From contig NZ_JANLGY010000009.1 of assembly GCF_024653915.1 (NCBI RefSeq), positions 1-64,000 on the forward strand: a stretch of DNA of 64,000 bases. Reading direction: 5' to 3'. This DNA comes from Sulfuricaulis sp. Lineage in GTDB: Bacteria; Pseudomonadota; Gammaproteobacteria; Acidiferrobacterales; Sulfurifustaceae. Numbering within the stretch: position 1 is the stretch's first letter; every line of letters begins with the position of its first letter. The position numbers and the translations under genes are program-made. Positions 53,333-63,492 of the stretch are shown here, one piece after another. The notes under the pieces are model-generated. The model was not told the DNA's origin and did not search any database. It saw only the letters and a program-made list of their open reading frames with translations.

Positions 53333-53371
53333 TTGCCGCGCCATCGGGACAGCGATTTGCGAGACCGAGGC

Positions 53372-54457
53372 ATGGAACAGGGAACCACGACTCAGCAGGA
53401 TCGGGAATGGGTGAGGCTTCGCAACCAGTTGCGCGATAATGAGCGCATCTGGTCCGGTTTTCGCCAGATAGAAGTACGCATGATTGGCTCACCATCGCTT
53501 CCCGATCTCATCCATATCGTCACCGCAGGCATTCCCGAGACGTTTCCCGGCATTGATTGTGTCACGGTGGCCTGTGTCGATCCTGAATACGAAATGACCC
53601 GTCTCATCGAAGACGGTGCCGAGCCGGGTTCCGGGGCGCGCCGCTTTATCGCCCTGCCGCGCGAGACACTGGATGGGCTGTTCACGCGCCCGTGGCGTCC
53701 CCGTCTGGGTCCGGTGGATGAGCGCCTCCATTCACTGCTTTTTTCCGGACATTCCTGCGCCTCGGGCTCAGTGGCGCTGGCGCCGCTGGTTCGACGCGGC
53801 GAACTGATTGGAAGCCTCAATCAAGGTAGCCGCCATGCGAGCCATTTCGCGCATGGCATTGCCACGGATCTGCTGGAGCATCTGGCGGCGGTCGCTGCCA
53901 TGTGCATCGATAACTCCATCAATCACGAAAGGCTCAAGCTCGACGGACTCACGGACCCCCTGACGGGAATTTCCAATCGCCGGTTTTTCGGACGCCGGCT
54001 GGCCGAAGAAGTGGAGCGCTGGGCGCGGCAATCCGGTCCGCTGGTGTGCATGCTGGTGGATGTGGATTTCTTCAAGCAGGTAAACGACCAGTACGGTCAT
54101 CAGGTCGGAGACAGGGTGCTGCGCCAGATAGCGAGCCTGCTCGGCCAGGATTTGCGTGGCAGTGACGTGCTGGCGCGTTATGGCGGCGAAGAATTTGTGC
54201 TGCTCCTGCCGGGCACCACCCCTGCGCAGGGTGCCGCGATTGCCGAACGCCTGCGTTCCAGTGTTGAACACAGCGCCTTTATTATTCCGGAAGGGGTTGA
54301 TCTGGATGTCACGGTGAGTGTCGGTTTGGCCTGTCTCCATCCTGGCGTGGATTCCTACGGGCCCGACCCCGCCGCCTGGCTGTTCGAGCAGGTGGACGCC
54401 GCGCTTTACCAGGCCAAGGAAACGGGACGCAACCGCGTGGTCCAGGCCCAGTCATAG
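53372..54457 (+). CDS. DUF484-GGDEF diguanylate cyclase
   Basis: About 361 aa from ATG 53372 (GAGG just upstream); a TTG at 53333 is the longer alternative. The N-terminal DUF484/GAF-like sensor (about 15-185) contains LRDNERIWSGFRQIEVRMIG and LAPLVRRGELIGSLNQGSRH. The GGDEF domain contains DPLTGISNRRFFGRRLAEEV, VDVDFFKQVNDQYGHQVGD and the active signature GGEEF (271-275). The inhibitory I-site RGSD (262-265) sits five residues before it, so product feedback is expected. The enzyme would make c-di-GMP, a general activator of EPS production. DUF484 fused to GGDEF is less common than stand-alone DUF484. Confidence 0.92.
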   Translation: MEQGTTTQQDREWVRLRNQLRDNERIWSGFRQIEVRMIGSPSLPDLIHIVTAGIPETFPGIDCVTVACVDPEYEMTRLIEDGAEPGSGARRFIALPRETLDGLFTRPWRPRLGPVDERLHSLLFSGHSCASGSVALAPLVRRGELIGSLNQGSRHASHFAHGIATDLLEHLAAVAAMCIDNSINHERLKLDGLTDPLTGISNRRFFGRRLAEEVERWARQSGPLVCMLVDVDFFKQVNDQYGHQVGDRVLRQIASLLGQDLRGSDVLARYGGEEFVLLLPGTTPAQGAAIAERLRSSVEHSAFIIPEGVDLDVTVSVGLACLHPGVDSYGPDPAAWLFEQVDAALYQAKETGRNRVVQAQS

Positions 54458-54555: not shown

Positions 54556-57500
54556 TTAGAACGATAATTCCACCATGCCGCCGCAGGCAGTAAAGAGCAG
54601 TAACAGTCTCAATTTTTTGCCCGGCCAGAGTCGTCGCGCCCCTTCGCCGTATTGACGCATCTGTTCCCTGAAGTTCTCCGCCAGTTGCGCGATGTTTTCC
54701 TTCGTGGCGCGTGCATGCGTTTTATAATCGATAACCACGATTTCTTCATCGCGCAAGATGAGCCGGTCGATGACGCCATCGACGTCGCGTTCGCCATCAT
54801 GATAAAGAATCGGTATTTCATTGCGTGCTTCCTGATAGCGCGTGGGATCAAAGAAATCGTGGAATTCCGCGCGATCGACCACGGCGCAGGCTTCCTGCCA
54901 CCACTGGTTGAAATCCTTTTCTTCCAGCCACTCACTAAATTCCTGCCATATTCTTTTTTCGATTGTTGTGTGCGCCTCACCGTTGGTCAGTCGTTCCAAC
55001 ATGCGATGAATCACATCGCCGCGACGTTTCGCTTGCGTGCGGGTTTCAGAAAATCCAGCGGTTTCGTCCGGTTGATGGTCATCCGTCGTGGCCGAACGGC
55101 TGGGATTGAGTATTCCGGTCTCCGGCATTGCGGAAAGAGGTATCGTCAGGAGCGGATCAATGACGAATCCGGCGTCGGGGGTTGGTATCTCGGGTGGTAA
55201 CGAAGATGGTGGCTCACCGTATTCCAGCCAGGCACACGTGTTGAATACAGTTTTTCCCTCGTCCAGGGAAACCTGACTGAGATTGAGCCCCACGTGTGCC
55301 GCTTCACCGGAATCCCCGGCTTGGCGAAGGCGTTTTTCGATAAAACCGTACCAGCCGCGATCGCCCTGTCCGGGCTCGCAGCCTGAGATATAGAGCATCT
55401 GCCTGGCACGTGTCAGCGCGACATACAGCAGATTGGCCTCCTCGCGACGGATCGACCATTGTTGTTCATTCTGGAGTGAAAGGCTGACGTCATCATTATT
55501 CTTCTTGGTACCGGCAAGGTGAAAATAGCGAGGACGCGGATCGTTCACCGGCCAATCAATCAGCGAACGCATTCCGCGATCGCGGTTTCGGGAGCCTCGC
55601 GCCGCGTCGGCGAGGAATACCACGGGCGCCTCCAGCCCCTTGGCAGCGTGGATAGTCATCACGCGCACCCGGGGCTGGCGGTTCCAGGCCGGATCGGCGG
55701 GAGATTTATCGTCGTCTTCTGAATGTCTTTCGAGATAGGTCAGAAAATGCGCCAGGCTTGGGTAGCGCCCGCTATCAACTTCCAGCGCCAGCTCAAGAAA
55801 ACGATTGAGATTGGCCTCCACGCGTGGCCGCTGATGCGGGATCGCGGCGGCGAGGTAGCGGGCCACCACGTTGCCCTCACAGTAGATACGGTCGAGCAGA
55901 TCGTGTACCGGGAGATGGCCAACATAAGCTCTCCAGTGCGGCAATAAACGTTGCGCGCGGGACAAGGCGCTGTCTGGTGTCAGGCCGGGGGCCAATCGGG
56001 CCAGACGTTCACGCCAGGATCCGGGCGGATGTTGGGCAAGGAGTATTAAGTTGTCTTCCGTGGCGGCGAAAATGGGTGAGCGCAGGGCTGAGGCTAGCGC
56101 GAGATCGTTATAGGGTTCGATCAGGTTGCGCAGCAGGTGCATGAGGTCGCGCACCTCCAGCGACTGCATAAAGGCCCCCCGACCTGATCCTATATAAGGT
56201 ATGCCGGCACGCCGCAGGGACTCTTCGTAAAACCGGGCATGAGTACGATCGCGCAGCAGGATCATGATGTCGTCCCCGGTTATGGGGCGCATCCTGTTCT
56301 TGTCGGCGACAGGATTTCCCAGAAGCTGCCGGATTTTCCCGGCGATCAAGTCGCCTTCCTCGCGATGCCGCGTGTCTTCATCCGTCTGGCGTGGTTGTTC
56401 CAGCGGGTTTCTCCATGCCTGATCCGTATTTTCCCGTGGCAGGTCCAGCCGCCGGATGAGCGGCAGCAACTCGGCCCGGCCCCATAATTGCTGATGGTGC
56501 GTGTCGTGTTTCTCGAAGTCCTGCAACGGATAATCACCGTCTGTTTCGATTTCAGTGTCGCCGGGGCGATGAAAGACAAGATTGACGAACCGGATAATGG
56601 CAGGCGAAGAGCGCCAGGACAGATGCTGCGTCAGCGTTTGTGCTTGTGCATGTTGTTGCAGCCAATGGCGGGCTGTATGAAACAGGCGCGGATCGGCGCG
56701 GCGAAAACGGTAAACCGACTGTTTTTCATCACCGACGAGAAAGACGCTACGACGACGCTCCGGGTCTCCGGCCACCATCTCTTGCAGCAGCGGCAGCAGC
56801 AGGCGCCACTGGGTCGGGTTGGTGTCCTGGAATTCATCCACCAGCAGATGGTCGATACGCTGATCCAGTTTGAATTGCACCCATTCGGCATGGCGGCTAC
56901 GGTTCAGCAGTTGGTAGGTATTCCATTCCAGGTCGGCGAAGTCGAGCAGGCCACGCCCCCTCTTGAGTCGCTGATATTCTTCGAGCAGCGCCACACCGCA
57001 CACATACCAGGCCTGGGAGATGCGGCATGTCTTCTGACGTTTGAACTCCGCAATGGCCGCCATCAACTGTGCAGCGATCCCCTGATGCAGGTTGACCAGA
57101 TCATTGGCATGCTTGGCGCCAAGTTTCTTTTCCAGCACCTGAGAGCGCTTCACCTGGCGCGGCTCATCCTTATCGGTCAGCAGCACGGTACGAATCCGAT
57201 TGAAGGTTTGCTGTGAAGGCGTCCCGTCCGACAGCGCGCGTGTCAGGTCCGCGACATGTTCCTGGTTCGTCGCCGTAGGATGACCGCCCAAAAGTTCTGC
57301 ATAACGTGCGATTTGTTGACGCATTTCGGGATTTTGGACAAAGGCGATGAGCGGATCGGCGTCGTCGGTAGTGCCGAGCAATTGCCGAAGTTGTGTCACG
57401 GCAAAACCCTCAGGGTCTTCTTCATTTTCGGTATAGGCCCACCAGTCGCTGCGGTGTGCCAGAAAATCATTCAGCGCCGTACTTGTGCCGGCCACGCCAG

Positions 57501-58029
57501 CGCATTCTTTCAGCAGTGTATCCAGCGCCCCGGATAACACGCCTCCTTTTTCTCGGAACGCATATTGGTCTAGCGCAAGCCAGGCGGCTTGCTCCAGTTC
57601 AGCCGTTGTCTCGATAAGCTCAAATCCCGGCGGTACGTCCGCCTCGAGAGGGAAACGTCGCAGTATTTCCTGACAGAAGGCATGAAACGTAGTTGTGCGT
57701 AGGACGTGTATCGCGCCCAGATGTTTTTCATAAAGCCCGCGCGCGATGTTGCGGCTTGTCTGATCGGTTCTGGCGCCGATTTCGGTGAGCTGTTTGACGA
57801 GCGTTCCCTCGTCGCTCGCGGCAAGGGCGAACAGACGTTCGGTGACGCGTTCATGTATTTCGCCGGCGGCCTTGCGCGTAAAGGTGATGGCCAGGATGGC
57901 GCCGGGCTCGCTGCCTTCGAGCAGCAGGCGAATGATGCGGCTGGTCAGCAGCCAGGTCTTGCCGGTGCCGGCGGCGGCATGGACCACGACGTTGTTTTCC
58001 GGGGCGGTGGCGAGTGCAGCATCAATCAT
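54556..58029 (-). CDS. addA: Double-strand break repair helicase-nuclease, AddA type
   Basis: A 1157-aa UvrD/RecB-family protein. The first helicase motif AAAGTGKTWLLTSRI (about 18-32) is Walker A. DHLLVDEFQDTNPTQWRLLL is motif II, VFLVGDEKQSVYRFRRADP is motif III, VRVMTIHAAKGLEAPVVFL is motif V and LLYVALTRARQMLYI is motif VI. The C-terminal PD-(D/E)XK nuclease has DGVIDRLILRDEEIVVIDYK. All parts are present at normal length. It would unwind and resect double-strand breaks for RecA together with the AddB-like partner encoded upstream on the same strand. Confidence 0.92.
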   Translation of the reverse strand: MIDAALATAPENNVVVHAAAGTGKTWLLTSRIIRLLLEGSEPGAILAITFTRKAAGEIHERVTERLFALAASDEGTLVKQLTEIGARTDQTSRNIARGLYEKHLGAIHVLRTTTFHAFCQEILRRFPLEADVPPGFELIETTAELEQAAWLALDQYAFREKGGVLSGALDTLLKECAGVAGTSTALNDFLAHRSDWWAYTENEEDPEGFAVTQLRQLLGTTDDADPLIAFVQNPEMRQQIARYAELLGGHPTATNQEHVADLTRALSDGTPSQQTFNRIRTVLLTDKDEPRQVKRSQVLEKKLGAKHANDLVNLHQGIAAQLMAAIAEFKRQKTCRISQAWYVCGVALLEEYQRLKRGRGLLDFADLEWNTYQLLNRSRHAEWVQFKLDQRIDHLLVDEFQDTNPTQWRLLLPLLQEMVAGDPERRRSVFLVGDEKQSVYRFRRADPRLFHTARHWLQQHAQAQTLTQHLSWRSSPAIIRFVNLVFHRPGDTEIETDGDYPLQDFEKHDTHHQQLWGRAELLPLIRRLDLPRENTDQAWRNPLEQPRQTDEDTRHREEGDLIAGKIRQLLGNPVADKNRMRPITGDDIMILLRDRTHARFYEESLRRAGIPYIGSGRGAFMQSLEVRDLMHLLRNLIEPYNDLALASALRSPIFAATEDNLILLAQHPPGSWRERLARLAPGLTPDSALSRAQRLLPHWRAYVGHLPVHDLLDRIYCEGNVVARYLAAAIPHQRPRVEANLNRFLELALEVDSGRYPSLAHFLTYLERHSEDDDKSPADPAWNRQPRVRVMTIHAAKGLEAPVVFLADAARGSRNRDRGMRSLIDWPVNDPRPRYFHLAGTKKNNDDVSLSLQNEQQWSIRREEANLLYVALTRARQMLYISGCEPGQGDRGWYGFIEKRLRQAGDSGEAAHVGLNLSQVSLDEGKTVFNTCAWLEYGEPPSSLPPEIPTPDAGFVIDPLLTIPLSAMPETGILNPSRSATTDDHQPDETAGFSETRTQAKRRGDVIHRMLERLTNGEAHTTIEKRIWQEFSEWLEEKDFNQWWQEACAVVDRAEFHDFFDPTRYQEARNEIPILYHDGERDVDGVIDRLILRDEEIVVIDYKTHARATKENIAQLAENFREQMRQYGEGARRLWPGKKLRLLLLFTACGGMVELSF

Positions 58030-58153
58030 GGTTGCGGACCCGGATGGGCGGTCGATAACCGGCGTATAACTTCATGTATTTCCATGGAAATATAAAGGTT
58101 TGCCGAAGGTCCGATTGGCTTGCAACTTGGGCTCCCCGGCCTATATTTATAAG

Positions 58154-58297
58154 AGGAAGGGAAGCCAAATAGGGACATATCGTAGCTGACGACATCGGAA
58201 GTAAGCAGGGAAGTCTCAAGGGATGCAAGGATGCATTCTGGAAGCAAGTGATCAGTAGAAATACCGGAGGCGGCCATGAACGGCCGCCTCTTTTTTT
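58154..58297 (+). ncRNA. Candidate CsrA/RsmA-titrating small RNA (GGA-rich)
   Basis: From 58154 to 58268 the plus strand has nine GGA triplets (starting at 58155, 58160, 58173, 58197, 58209, 58221, 58229, 58240, 58266). One lies in the loop of a hairpin GGATGCA-AGGA-TGCATTC (58221-58238), the textbook CsrA-binding shape. A 9-bp GAGGCGGCC/GGCCGCCTC stem with seven T (58267-58297) ends it. TTGCAA (58120-58125) and TATATT (58142-58147) could be the promoter. No ORF explains a plus-strand terminator here. Density of GGA, loop placement and the terminator resemble RsmY/RsmZ/CsrB RNAs. Confidence 0.6.
58267..58297 (+). terminator. Strong intrinsic terminator on the plus strand
   Basis: The 9-bp perfect stem GAGGCGGCC (58267-58275)/GGCCGCCTC (58282-58290), loop ATGAAC and TTTTTTT follow a GGA-rich segment. 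The reverse strand lacks a T-run after the stem, so it acts only rightward. It lies 12 bp beyond the end of the opposing AddB-like gene. Confidence 0.85.
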
Positions 58298-58308
58298 ATC
58301 TCGATCAC

Positions 58309-61224
58309 TTACGATGCGGATGATTCTGGTTCGGCCCACATTTCGCGGCGACACAGCCCCTCCATTTCACAAATCCGGCAAGTTTCCATGTCACCCCACG
58401 CGGGCAATGGTGTTTCAGCATCAAGGCGGCGTTTGAGCAGCATCAATCGTTCACGCACTGCCGCGCGCAACAGGGCCAGTGACTGGCCATCGAGAGTTGC
58501 CTTTTCATTTACGTTCTCGCCGTCCAGCGCAAGAAATGTCGCCTGTGTAACATTTTCCTTTTCCAGCAACAGGGCATAGAACGGAAGCTGGATATTTTCA
58601 CCTCGGAGCACCTCATCACGTGAGGGCACGGAACCGGTTTTGTAATCGATGATGCCATACCCGTCCTTGCCATGGTCGAGGCGATCAATGCGCCCGGTAA
58701 GGGTGATTTGTGTTTCACCTTCGAGAAACTTTTGTTCTCTCTTGATTTCCGATGCCTCAGCCTGCCACTGCGCTGCACGTTTCATTTCCCATTCCACATA
58801 GGCCGGAATGCATTTCTCCCAGCGGTAGAGCCAGCCTCGTGCCAAGAAGCGCCGGCGCAGATCCTTGGCGAATACCTGTTGCGAAATCTGGTGCAGCAGG
58901 GCCTCCGCGTCGGGTCGGGTGGCGTCATCGAGCTTGGCTCGCCACGGACCGGCAAGACCGGGCATGCCGGTATGGAAGGCTTGCAAGATGCGATGCACAT
59001 GGATCCCGTAATCCACTTTTTCGATTTCCTCGCGCACTTCGTCTTCCGGCGCCAGACCCAGACCGCGGGCCGCAAAGAACTGGTAGGGGCAATTGACCAA
59101 ACGCTGGTAGTCCGTGGCAGTAAATGCCGCTGGCAACATGGATGGCGGCAGGCGCGCGGCCGGTGGTGCCACGGGCGTCGGCAGCGGCGCATCGCGCACG
59201 ACAATGATGGTATCGGGTTGTAGCACGAGCCATTCCAGTTCGGGATCGCGCAGTGAAGTGTTGTAGGATATTTCGTGAAAGGCGCGCAGGCGTTCCACCC
59301 AGGGGCTCGGGACCAGGCGTTCGCCTTCGTGTTCACGGCGCAGGCTAACTACTACGCGCGGCGCGGCTTCGAGCAGACGGCGGAAATCCTGAAGCAGCGC
59401 GGCGTAGCGCCGTGCCAGCGACGGCAAGCCCAGTTCGGTGCGCGCGCTGTCATTAAAATACGGGGGCGCGCCGATTTGCCCTGGCAGGTGTTCGCGCACC
59501 GCCCCGGCGACAATGAGCGCATCGAAGCGGTAGAGCCGCGATTCCGCGAAGCTCATCAGTTCCACGCCGCGCCCTTGCATCGGCGGATGAAAACGGCGCT
59601 GTTCCATGCCGCGCCGCAGCCACTGGTGAAAATCGGCCCACGACAGGCGCAGGCTGCTGTGCCGGGCGGCTGAGCGCATTTCATCGAGCACGTTCAACAG
59701 TTCACGGCCGGCGTCGTCTTTTTCAAACCCCGCCGACAAACCCAGGTTTTCAAGGCTTTTGAGCAGTGCATCCAGGAATTCCAGCAAGGCTCGCGGCCGT
59801 GCCGTTGTCAGGGGAATCAGGGGAGACGCTGCGTCTTCCAGCCGGTCCATCAACTGTGTCAGCGCTGTGCCAGCCGCGGCGTGTTCTTCGCGCCAATCAG
59901 TCTTGGCGCGTTCAAGGCCGTGACGGTAATGCTCGACCCCGGAAGTGATGTTGTATGAGCGAATGACGGTTTGCTCGAACAGGGAGACGAGGCGGTCAAA
60001 TTCCGGTTGCCTGACGCCAAGTTGCAGAAAGGGCGATTTCAGCAAATCAAGCAGAGGGGCGTGGGAGAAATTCTGCTCCATGCATTCGAGCCAGCGCGCC
60101 AACGCGGTCGCGGCGCTGGTGGTCGAGAGTGTCCAGCCACCGGCATCTACCAGCCCGATGTGGGCACGTTCCAGTAGCGCGCGCACACGGCGCGCCAACT
60201 TGCGGTCGTTGGTGACGATGCCGATATCACGCAGACCCTGTGTGAGCCAGCGTCGTACCTGAAGATCGATGGCGCGTGCCTCGGATTCGGCGTCCGCCGC
60301 CTCATGCAGAATCAGACGTGCTTGCGCGGGACTGGTCGGCGAAGCCGCCGCCTGCTGCTGGGCGCGCTGCCGCAAGTTGCCATCCTCTGAGGCAAAAACA
60401 CGATCGAGAAAATCTGCATACGCGTCGCGTGCGGGGATGGCCTGTAATTTTTCCTGCAATGCGCTCAGAAGATACGTCGTCGGATTTTCCGGATCCTTGT
60501 TGCCGGGACCATGAATCAACAATGTCAGGCTCTGACGGGCAAGCAGTGTTTTGATCCAGTTTATTTCCGCGCGCGAGAAATCCACGAAACCGGCCAGATA
60601 GACCCGGGTATCACCCGTTAGTTGACCGGCGCTTCGTTCCAGACCGTCCGTGAATTGCAGCGTTTGGTCCTGAAGATCATTTCTCTTGAGACGCTCGCGC
60701 CATGCGCCCCACAACACGTGCACCAGCTGTGCCTCGTCGCTGAACGGTGAAACATCGCCCGTCCCGGCATTGTGGCCCGGTGCAATTTGCCGAATCAGAT
60801 CGGCGGGGTTTTCTGGCAGTTGGCATTCCTGAAGCGCCAGATCGTCGAATAATGCCAACAGGCTGTCAGCCAGCGGCCAGTCGCCGTAGGCCCGGCGCCA
60901 ATGGGGATAATCGTGCAGCACATCGAGCAGCAGGATTTCACGCGCCGTTGTGCTCAGCCGACGCATGTTGCTGTCGGCAAAGCGTGTTGCCCAGGATGCC
61001 AGCGTGCCGGTGAAGGGCGGGAGCAGGGCGGTGAAATTTTTCAGCGCCGCCTGTTCCCGGAGTATCCGGCGAAAACGCGGCACGGCGCTGCTATGGGGGA
61101 GCAATACAGCTTGTTGGCTTAAGTCCGGAAGACGGTCTTTATGCCGTTCCAGCAACAGCATGGCGAGATGACATAGCGGATCGTCTCCGTAGGGGACCAG
61201 TATGACCGGTGCGTCAGCGCTCAA
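58309..61224 (-). CDS. AddB-like nuclease/helicase-fold DNA repair protein
   Basis: A 971-aa protein of the 'probable DNA repair protein' group (TIGR03623) paired with AddA-like helicases. The N-terminal inactive-helicase half contains [20 protein letters not shown] and [20 protein letters not shown]. The C-terminal PD-(D/E)XK nuclease contains [20 protein letters not shown], then KTG. Four Cys suited to an AddB-type iron-sulfur staple are visible: one in VNCPYQFF and three in [10 protein letters not shown] near the end. It overlaps the FdxA gene by 11 bp. It should scan DNA and cut the strand opposite to AddA. Confidence 0.88.
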
Positions 61225-61537
61225 GGTACTTGAGTTTGTTGGGCTTATCTTCCCACTCGGCCGCGTCCGGCGGTCCGGGTTTTTTCTCGGTCAACACTGG
61301 CCATTTTTTAGTCAGTTCGGCGTTGATGGCAGTGAATTGCTTCTGGTCTTCCGGCAAGTCATCTTCCGCAAAAATGGCGTTTACCGGGCATTCGGGTACA
61401 CACAGGGTGCAATCGATGCATTCTTCGGGGTCAATGACCAGGAAGTTAGGGCCTTCATGGAAACAATCCACGGGGCAGACTTCCACGCAATCCGTGTATT
61501 TACAGCGGATGCAGCTTTCCGTGACCACGTACGTCAT
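61214..61537 (-). CDS. fdxA: Ferredoxin FdxA (3Fe-4S/4Fe-4S)
   Basis: A 107-aa seven-iron ferredoxin. The first cluster region is [20 protein letters not shown] and the second [16 protein letters not shown]. The C-terminal extension, with [19 protein letters not shown], is typical of FdxA and absent from two-4Fe ferredoxins. It is the first gene of the leftward operon that continues into the AddB-like gene (11-bp overlap). An electron-transfer protein next to an iron-sulfur nuclease may be coincidence or may help cluster maintenance. Confidence 0.95.
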
Positions 61538-61755: not shown

Positions 61756-63492
61756 GTGACCGGACTGGCTCTCACATTACCTACTAAGCGTGTCTCGGCC
61801 TGGATGGCGGAGACCGATCCCAAGTACGCGCAAGCGTGGATCGCTTCCTTGCCGCTCGCCGACAGCGCGGAGACAGCACGGGAAGTTTACCAGGCGCTTT
61901 ATACCCTCAATCGTCAGGATCTGGACGCCGCGCGTCGCTTCGAGCTGATGGAGCTTTACAACGCTCCCGTAGCCACTGTCACCTCCACATTGGAGTCGTA
62001 TTTTACCCGTGCCGCACTGCCGCTGACGCCGAAGAAACGCCAGCTGGCGGAGTTTATCCGCCAGTTGCACATGGAAATGGCCTACGGCTACAAGGGCTGC
62101 CTTCAGGATCTGGAAAAGCAGCGGTTGCGCTGGGGCAAGAAATCCTTGCGTGCGCAGGCGCTGGTGCGCTCCCTGCATTACCTCGGCGAGATGTTGCTGC
62201 ATTCCTATCAGGTGTACATGCCGTATCCGCCGGAGGTGTGGCGCGAGATACATGCCATCTATCAGTATGCCGCCGAACACGATTTGACGCAGGAGGTGCT
62301 CGACTCGCCCGCGCCCACGACTGCCAAGACCACGATCAGCCACGAATACATTCACATCCTGCTCCTGGGTTTGAGCAATCCTTATCAGTTGCCGCAGGGT
62401 GAATGCCGGCAGGTGCAACGTTTCCTGCATCAGTGGAGCGCCAAGGCGGAGCTGAGAGACGCTCTCAAGTCCGCACCATCGGCTGGATATTTCCTCATCG
62501 ATCCCGCGACCGATTCACCGCCGGTACCGTTTCCTCAAGGCGAGGCATTCCAGCCGGGTCAGGGGGTGCGACTGCTGGATGCCGTGGAACTGCTGCGCTC
62601 CATTCAGTTTTTCATCCAGCGCCTGCAACAGGGCGACAGCGCCCGCGCGCTGTCGCTGGGTATTGATTGCCTGGATTCCGTCTGCCTCGACATGTTGCAA
62701 CGCATGATGCGCTCTTGGGGCCAGTTGCCCAAGCGGCAGTTCTCGCGTATTCAGCGCAGTGGCCCGGCCTTCGTGTGTGCCGGTATCCAGGCGCTGCATT
62801 TTTTTGCCAGCGGCCAAAAACCATTCGCTCCACCGGTAAGTGTTGCCAAACACGAAGCCACTGACGACCGCGTGATTCTCCCGTCGCATATCGAGGAAGA
62901 CATCACACGCGAGGTGCGCGCGGACGAGGAGGATTTCATCGCGCTCGACGAACCGGTGGCGGTGGGGCCGATGCCGCAGACGGAACCGCGCGAGAGCACC
63001 GTTTCTTCCGGCGAAGGATTTCGTGTCGATCGCTGGCAGATCAAGGATGCCGCGCCCAAGGGGCTGCAATTGGTGCGCTTTGGCAGTTCACACACCTATG
63101 TACGTGTCGGCGATGCCGTGGGTATCCAGCAGATGGACGAGATCGGCCGTTGGAGCGCCGGCGTGGTGCGCTGGATGAAAAGCCCCGAGGCCGGCAGCTT
63201 GGAAATGGGCATTGAATTGCTGGCCTCCGGCGTCAAGCCGGTGGCGGTCGCCCTGGTGCGCGGCACTGGCACAGGCGATTATCAGCCCGCGCTGCTTCTG
63301 CCAGCCATCGAAGCCCTGCGCCGCCCGGCCACGCTGCTGTTGCCGCGCGGTGTTTACGCTCCCGGCAGCAATCTTTTGCTGGCGGAAGAAACGGAAGCAA
63401 TCCGCACCGTGCGCCTGTTGCAGCGGCTTGAGTATACGAACGTCTTCGAGCTGCTGGTGTTTGCCGACGTTGTCCCCGATCAACGGGGATGA
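61756..63492 (+). CDS. Uncharacterised 578-aa conserved-type protein, possible C-terminal PilZ-like domain
   Basis: A large soluble protein with GTG start and AGGAAG nearby. The N-terminal ~280 residues are helical (WIASLPLADSAETAREVYQA, QLHMEMAYGYKGCLQDLEKQ, RALVRSLHYLGEM-like repeats). A variable acidic linker (~360-410) follows. A beta-rich C-terminus has RWQIKDAAPKGLQLVRFGSS, IGRWSAGVVRWMKSPEAGSL and GIELLASGVKPVAVAL. The last segment recalls PilZ-type barrels (W..G.VRW....G...MGIELL), but the RxxxR motif is not clear. No enzyme motif seen. A role in c-di-GMP signalling is a guess. Confidence 0.7.
   Translation: MTGLALTLPTKRVSAWMAETDPKYAQAWIASLPLADSAETAREVYQALYTLNRQDLDAARRFELMELYNAPVATVTSTLESYFTRAALPLTPKKRQLAEFIRQLHMEMAYGYKGCLQDLEKQRLRWGKKSLRAQALVRSLHYLGEMLLHSYQVYMPYPPEVWREIHAIYQYAAEHDLTQEVLDSPAPTTAKTTISHEYIHILLLGLSNPYQLPQGECRQVQRFLHQWSAKAELRDALKSAPSAGYFLIDPATDSPPVPFPQGEAFQPGQGVRLLDAVELLRSIQFFIQRLQQGDSARALSLGIDCLDSVCLDMLQRMMRSWGQLPKRQFSRIQRSGPAFVCAGIQALHFFASGQKPFAPPVSVAKHEATDDRVILPSHIEEDITREVRADEEDFIALDEPVAVGPMPQTEPRESTVSSGEGFRVDRWQIKDAAPKGLQLVRFGSSHTYVRVGDAVGIQQMDEIGRWSAGVVRWMKSPEAGSLEMGIELLASGVKPVAVALVRGTGTGDYQPALLLPAIEALRRPATLLLPRGVYAPGSNLLLAEETEAIRTVRLLQRLEYTNVFELLVFADVVPDQRG

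Follow-up and report, generated by a model that had tools for sequence, protein, structure and literature searches.

The small RNAs RsmY, RsmX, CsrB, and CsrC share the common architecture of CsrA/RsmA sponges. For a further sponge, RsmZ/PrrB (Rfam RF00166), the gene row in Pseudomonas is nlpD, rpoS, rsmZ, fdxA (PMC3395598, PMC4353343). CsrR2 of Alcanivorax adjoins a ferredoxin gene and is antisense to it (PMC9788540). As of 2017, every species in which RsmA-regulating sRNAs had been validated by experiment also had GacA/S, and Rsm-type sRNAs were predicted in species that lack GacA (PMC5568370).

Here we describe a feature in the window, the 64,000-nucleotide stretch of Sulfuricaulis DNA under analysis, which is very probably a gene of about 145 nt for a CsrA/RsmA-sequestering regulatory RNA of the RsmZ/CsrB kind. 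The small RNA is probably real and previously unlisted, and the bacteria that carry it belong to a sulfur-oxidizing group. The closest described system is RsmZ/PrrB, which is alike in length, in its 5' and internal GGA hairpins, in its several GGA sites, and in its terminator. It is also the best, although subthreshold, Rfam match, and fdxA lies nearby in both. In contrast to RsmZ/PrrB, the candidate scores below the gathering threshold and has no GacA upstream activating site (UAS), and no GacA was found in the genome. Unlike at Pseudomonas rsmZ, rpoS was not seen at the window locus, and addA and addB lie on either side in the window's genus. CsrR2 of Alcanivorax dieselolei (PMC9788540) is likewise GGA-rich and antisense, with its own sigma-70-type promoter and a ferredoxin gene as neighbor. 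However, it comes from another order, its other neighbor is hpt, and it is likened to the candidate by description, not by sequence. No match to RsmY, RsmX, CsrB, or CsrC was found in the window. The RNAs of GacA-less species in PMC5568370 are also candidate CsrA sponges without GacA, but they are predictions in selected species, whereas here conservation, covariation, and locus were traced over an order. The kind of sponge is thus already known (CsrB/RsmZ), and the idea of sponges without GacA is not new (PMC5568370). This member differs in being missed by Rfam at its cutoff and in the apparent loss of the GacA input in most of an order. The papers searched contain no earlier description of the RNA, of its covariation, or of the upstream palindrome presented below, and none of them links Acidiferrobacterales with CsrA.

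The candidate RNA gene and its conservation within the genus

The following elements were located in the window.

58153..58297, plus strand: candidate CsrA/RsmA-sponge RNA gene, about 145 nt, its start deduced from the promoter
58120..58147, plus strand: sigma-70-type promoter TTGCAA - 16 nt - TATATT, conserved, which fits a start near 58153
58155..58242, plus strand: eight GGA motifs, starting at 58155, 58160, 58173, 58197, 58209, 58221, 58229, and 58240
58220..58239, plus strand: central hairpin GGGAUGCA[AGGA]UGCAUUCU (loop in brackets), 8 bp, with covariation among relatives
58266..58297, plus strand: intrinsic terminator, a 10-bp stem and seven T, conserved within the genus

A ninth GGA, in the terminator base (58266), brings the total to nine in 114 nt. 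The sequence-only reading of this DNA had counted nine in 115 nt, in agreement with this result. It had also recognized the AGGA loop on a stem and the plus-strand terminator with its seven T; both were recovered, with stems of 8 and 10 bp instead of the 7 and 9 bp given there. On the minus strand, no T run follows the terminator stem. The plus strand of the addA-addB gap carries no gene, as had been claimed, and both flanking genes are on the minus strand. The central AGGA hairpin is likely the best CsrA site of the putative RNA.

The eight GGA in 113 nt compare with a window average of about 1.75 per 113 nt, a 4-5-fold density. Dinucleotide shuffling of this same stretch gave 4.5 GGA versus the 8 observed (P about 0.014). 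The GGA count alone is only modestly unusual, because 8 GGA per 113 nt were reached at four other places in the window when both strands were searched, and it would not settle the case. The fold of the whole RNA was mildly better than that of shuffles (z -2.1). The strong evidence for an RNA gene is comparative.

In a DNA search of 60 related genomes, the stretch was present in six further genomes of the same genus, which gives a set of seven including the window's own (Sulfuricaulis / 'Ca. Muproteobacteria', Acidiferrobacterales). Promoter, hairpin, and terminator are retained across the seven, and the DNA further upstream diverges. In the alignment, TTGCA and TATA(T/G)T are found in 7/7 sequences. 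The six GGA from 58160 to 58229 also occur in all seven, as read by eye with a local shift for one genome (G007); the first GGA (58155) is missing in two and the last (58240) in three. Three other loci gave weak matches in the DNA search (L013, L014, L016), which on inspection by eye looked like coding sequence or chance similarity.

Genomic neighborhood of the candidate RNA

The genes around the candidate are as follows.

53333..54457, plus strand: GGDEF-domain gene, the other lasting neighbor in the order
54556..58029, minus strand: addA-like helicase-nuclease gene, which flanks the RNA gene in the window's genus and not in all relatives
58309..61224, minus strand: addB-like nuclease gene, which separates the RNA gene from fdxA
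61214..61537, minus strand: fdxA, ferredoxin, a lasting neighbor of the RNA gene and convergent with it

The order searched appears to be the Acidiferrobacterales, in which NCBI places Sulfuricaulis. The fdxA gene is one gene away from the RNA in the window and is the adjacent gene in relatives without addAB and in several outgroups. At 30 fdxA loci of the order, ten GGA-rich, terminator-ended stretches were found, some of them already known from the model search described below; all ten lie on the 3' side of fdxA and are convergent with it. No such stretch occurred at these 30 loci in any of the remaining three side-and-strand combinations. At 30 class-wide fdxA loci, which were best protein matches and hence biased, with two from the window's genus, the same four combinations gave 7, 1, 0, and 0. 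The lasting neighbor of the RNA is fdxA, not addA/addB, since the scans of the fdxA flanks and the arrangements in Pseudomonas and Alcanivorax agree. The placement of the RNA in the addA/addB gap by the sequence-only reading is correct for the window and is misleading because the conserved neighbor is fdxA, as for Pseudomonas rsmZ. At fdxA in several genomes of the order that have csrA and fdxA (family f4, genus g14), no such RNA was detected.

The RNA lies antisense in a 279-nt gap between two genes of the same orientation, addA and addB, and a dual antisense and sponge role was proposed for CsrR2 (PMC9788540). Both points favor a cis-antisense RNA that would control the addB-addA transcript by base-pairing with the overlapped gap. 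However, in three genomes of the order (G009, G029, G046) the RNA lies between the GGDEF gene and fdxA with no addA or addB at the locus, and therefore addAB cannot be the conserved target. In addition, the conservation of the candidate RNA is centered on its GGA loops. Cis-antisense control is very unlikely as the explanation of the feature; antisense action on addAB or fdxA may exist as a secondary effect. In G007, the RNA has the GGDEF gene as a neighbor, and between the RNA and fdxA stands a diverged pair resembling AddA/AddB (C89:14065-21050; L008, L077, L138). This genome lacks the window's arrangement of orthologous addA and addB flanking the RNA on each side.

One outgroup locus (L120 in G101) has two tandem GGA-rich, terminator-ended stretches on the 3' side of fdxA, with terminators 257 and 773 bases away, possibly a duplicated sponge RNA.

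Covariance-model searches and covariation of the GGA hairpins

At the gathering threshold, Rfam returned two tRNAs only for the whole window. Below the threshold, PrrB_RsmZ (RF00166) gave a full-length match of 26 bits versus a gathering score of 44 (E 3.6e-4 in a 451-nt search), and two relatives score similarly. When RF00166 was searched across the class, a single genome (G217) exceeded the cutoff, with weak matches elsewhere. The G217 RNA is adjoined by an rpoS-like gene, so named from its sequence, and no fdxA was seen in the flank examined. With the RsmY model, just one relative gave a match (L042), at 24 bits versus a cutoff of 57. Our own covariance model of the candidate (R1) had matches in 19/57 genomes of the order, some weak ones by the terminator alone. 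Phage records gave no match to the candidate RNA.

Inspection of the R1 loci, and of addA-addB gaps in additional genomes, gave 19 RNAs of the order with GGA, a terminator, and promoter-like boxes (these chosen by eye). Other families have diverged versions, in which GGA-loop hairpins persist on different stems. Recurring designs include UGGCA[AGGA]UGCCA and ACGGU[AAGGAA]GCUGU for the 5' hairpin and GGGAUGCA[AGGA]UGCAUUCC, UGAAGC[AGGGAA]GCUUCA, and CUCCGGUGC[AUGGAA]GCACCGGAG for the central one. In 13 of these RNAs, which are related sequences and not independent events, the count of GGA inside loops on stems of at least 6 bp was 11 compared with 0.59 in shuffles (maximum 5 in 1000). For the central hairpin, 94.8% of cells were paired, with 13 double changes versus 3.9, and slid controls were 34-49% paired. 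The 5' hairpin was weaker (87.5% paired, 9 double changes versus 2.5) and is degenerate in the window's genus. The hairpins in these counts were picked by eye, which favors pairing. Judged from these alignments, two GGA hairpins, both eye-picked, are kept by covariation.

These data also bear on the reading as a conserved terminator and promoter region that carries GGA by chance and is no CsrA ligand. The GGA excess over the shuffle of the stretch is modest and some model matches are due to the terminator alone, two points in favor of this reading. However, the GGA remain in loops while both sides of the stem change, the RsmZ-family match is full length, and csrA is present, so that we rate a chance origin of the GGA as highly improbable, if anything more so than the antisense reading. 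That the feature is a short coding gene, or else a leader of addA on the minus strand, is barely conceivable: small open frames exist on both strands, but the plus-strand frames inside the RNA are of 21-32 aa or extend beyond it, not every indel among relatives has a length divisible by three, and the RNA persists at loci without an adjoining addA. Antisense control of addAB, a coding gene, and a minus-strand leader were rejected on this locus and frame evidence.

The assignment to the CsrB/RsmY/RsmZ type made by the sequence-only reading is thus supported. The csrA gene that it required is present, close relatives retain the GGA motifs, a covariance model searched against related genomes recovered homologues, and the GGA-loop hairpins covary. 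The GacA-type UAS that it proposed to seek upstream was not found, and GacA itself is apparently missing.

CsrA, GacA, and upstream regulatory sites

A single csrA match is present in the window genome, with an aspartate-kinase-like gene beside it, and csrA was found in 53/57 genomes of the order. Two genomes of the order have an unusual number of CsrA-family matches, sixteen in G016 and twelve in G020.

The window genome yielded no orthologue of GacA/UvrY; its best match to E. coli UvrY has 31% identity. We take this match to be NarL-like; its gene follows that of a presumably NarX-like kinase, named from its sequence. Elsewhere in the order UvrY matches have 29-39% identity, with one of 45% in G026 that could be a true GacA orthologue, which is doubtful. 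Six outgroups were checked: five that carry a GGA RNA linked to fdxA, and G217, whose RsmZ exceeds the Rfam cutoff. All six encode a GacA-like protein, with UvrY matches of 47-59% identity. GacA-like sites with at most 2 mismatches are located 167-168 nt upstream of the RNA in 3/5 of the outgroups with an fdxA-linked RNA (L117, L119, L120). A weaker site lies upstream at L099, none was found upstream of the RNA at L111, and G217 has a GacA-like site near RsmZ. No site resembling the GacA UAS TGTAAG-N6-CTTACA with 3 or fewer mismatches was found in the window's genus, and the sole upstream match among the 19 order RNAs was one with 3 mismatches in G013.

In most relatives outside the window's genus, a palindrome TTCA-N6-TGAA is situated about 107 nt upstream. 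It was noticed in the same sequences before counting; 10/17 loci outside the genus have it exactly, 95-118 nt upstream of the -10 box, versus 0.09 in shuffles, and 15/17 have it with one mismatch allowed, versus 2.5. We infer that a regulator binds this palindrome. It is absent from the window's genus. A weak element, ATAACCnnATGaa (about 58065-58077), recurs upstream of the promoter in that genus, including G007, whose RNA has no orthologous addA next to it.

Proposed mechanism and origin

Transcription of the candidate RNA, its binding of CsrA, and titration are predicted from the elements described above. The RNA would be made from its own sigma-70-type promoter and ended by the intrinsic terminator. 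Several GGA sites, at least one of them in a hairpin loop, would collect CsrA/RsmA dimers, with the AGGA-loop hairpin leading. Rising synthesis of the RNA would then sequester CsrA and free CsrA-repressed mRNAs.

The candidate RNA is probably allied to rsmZ at an old fdxA locus and perhaps orthologous to it, orthology being judged from position and architecture, since the divergence of the sequences precludes a tree. GacS/GacA is probably not its driver in this lineage. A different regulator would act instead, in most relatives outside the genus at TTCA-N6-TGAA about 107 nt upstream. We would give an even chance to the following history: the fdxA-linked RsmZ RNA is an old gammaproteobacterial gene that was rewired in Acidiferrobacterales, where GacS/GacA and the UAS were lost, another regulator took over at TTCA-N6-TGAA in most families, and this site has also gone in the Sulfuricaulis lineage. 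An order that retains csrA together with a GGA-loop RNA that covaries and lies near fdxA, and that has no clear GacA but another conserved palindrome upstream, makes a concrete case for finding other drivers of sponge RNAs. The results also suggest that fdxA linkage is an ancient signature of the RsmZ locus and could serve to find members that Rfam misses.

Also in the window, at 61756-63492, is the gene of a 578-aa protein that has no Pfam match; relatives of this protein adjoin fdxA in most order loci read.
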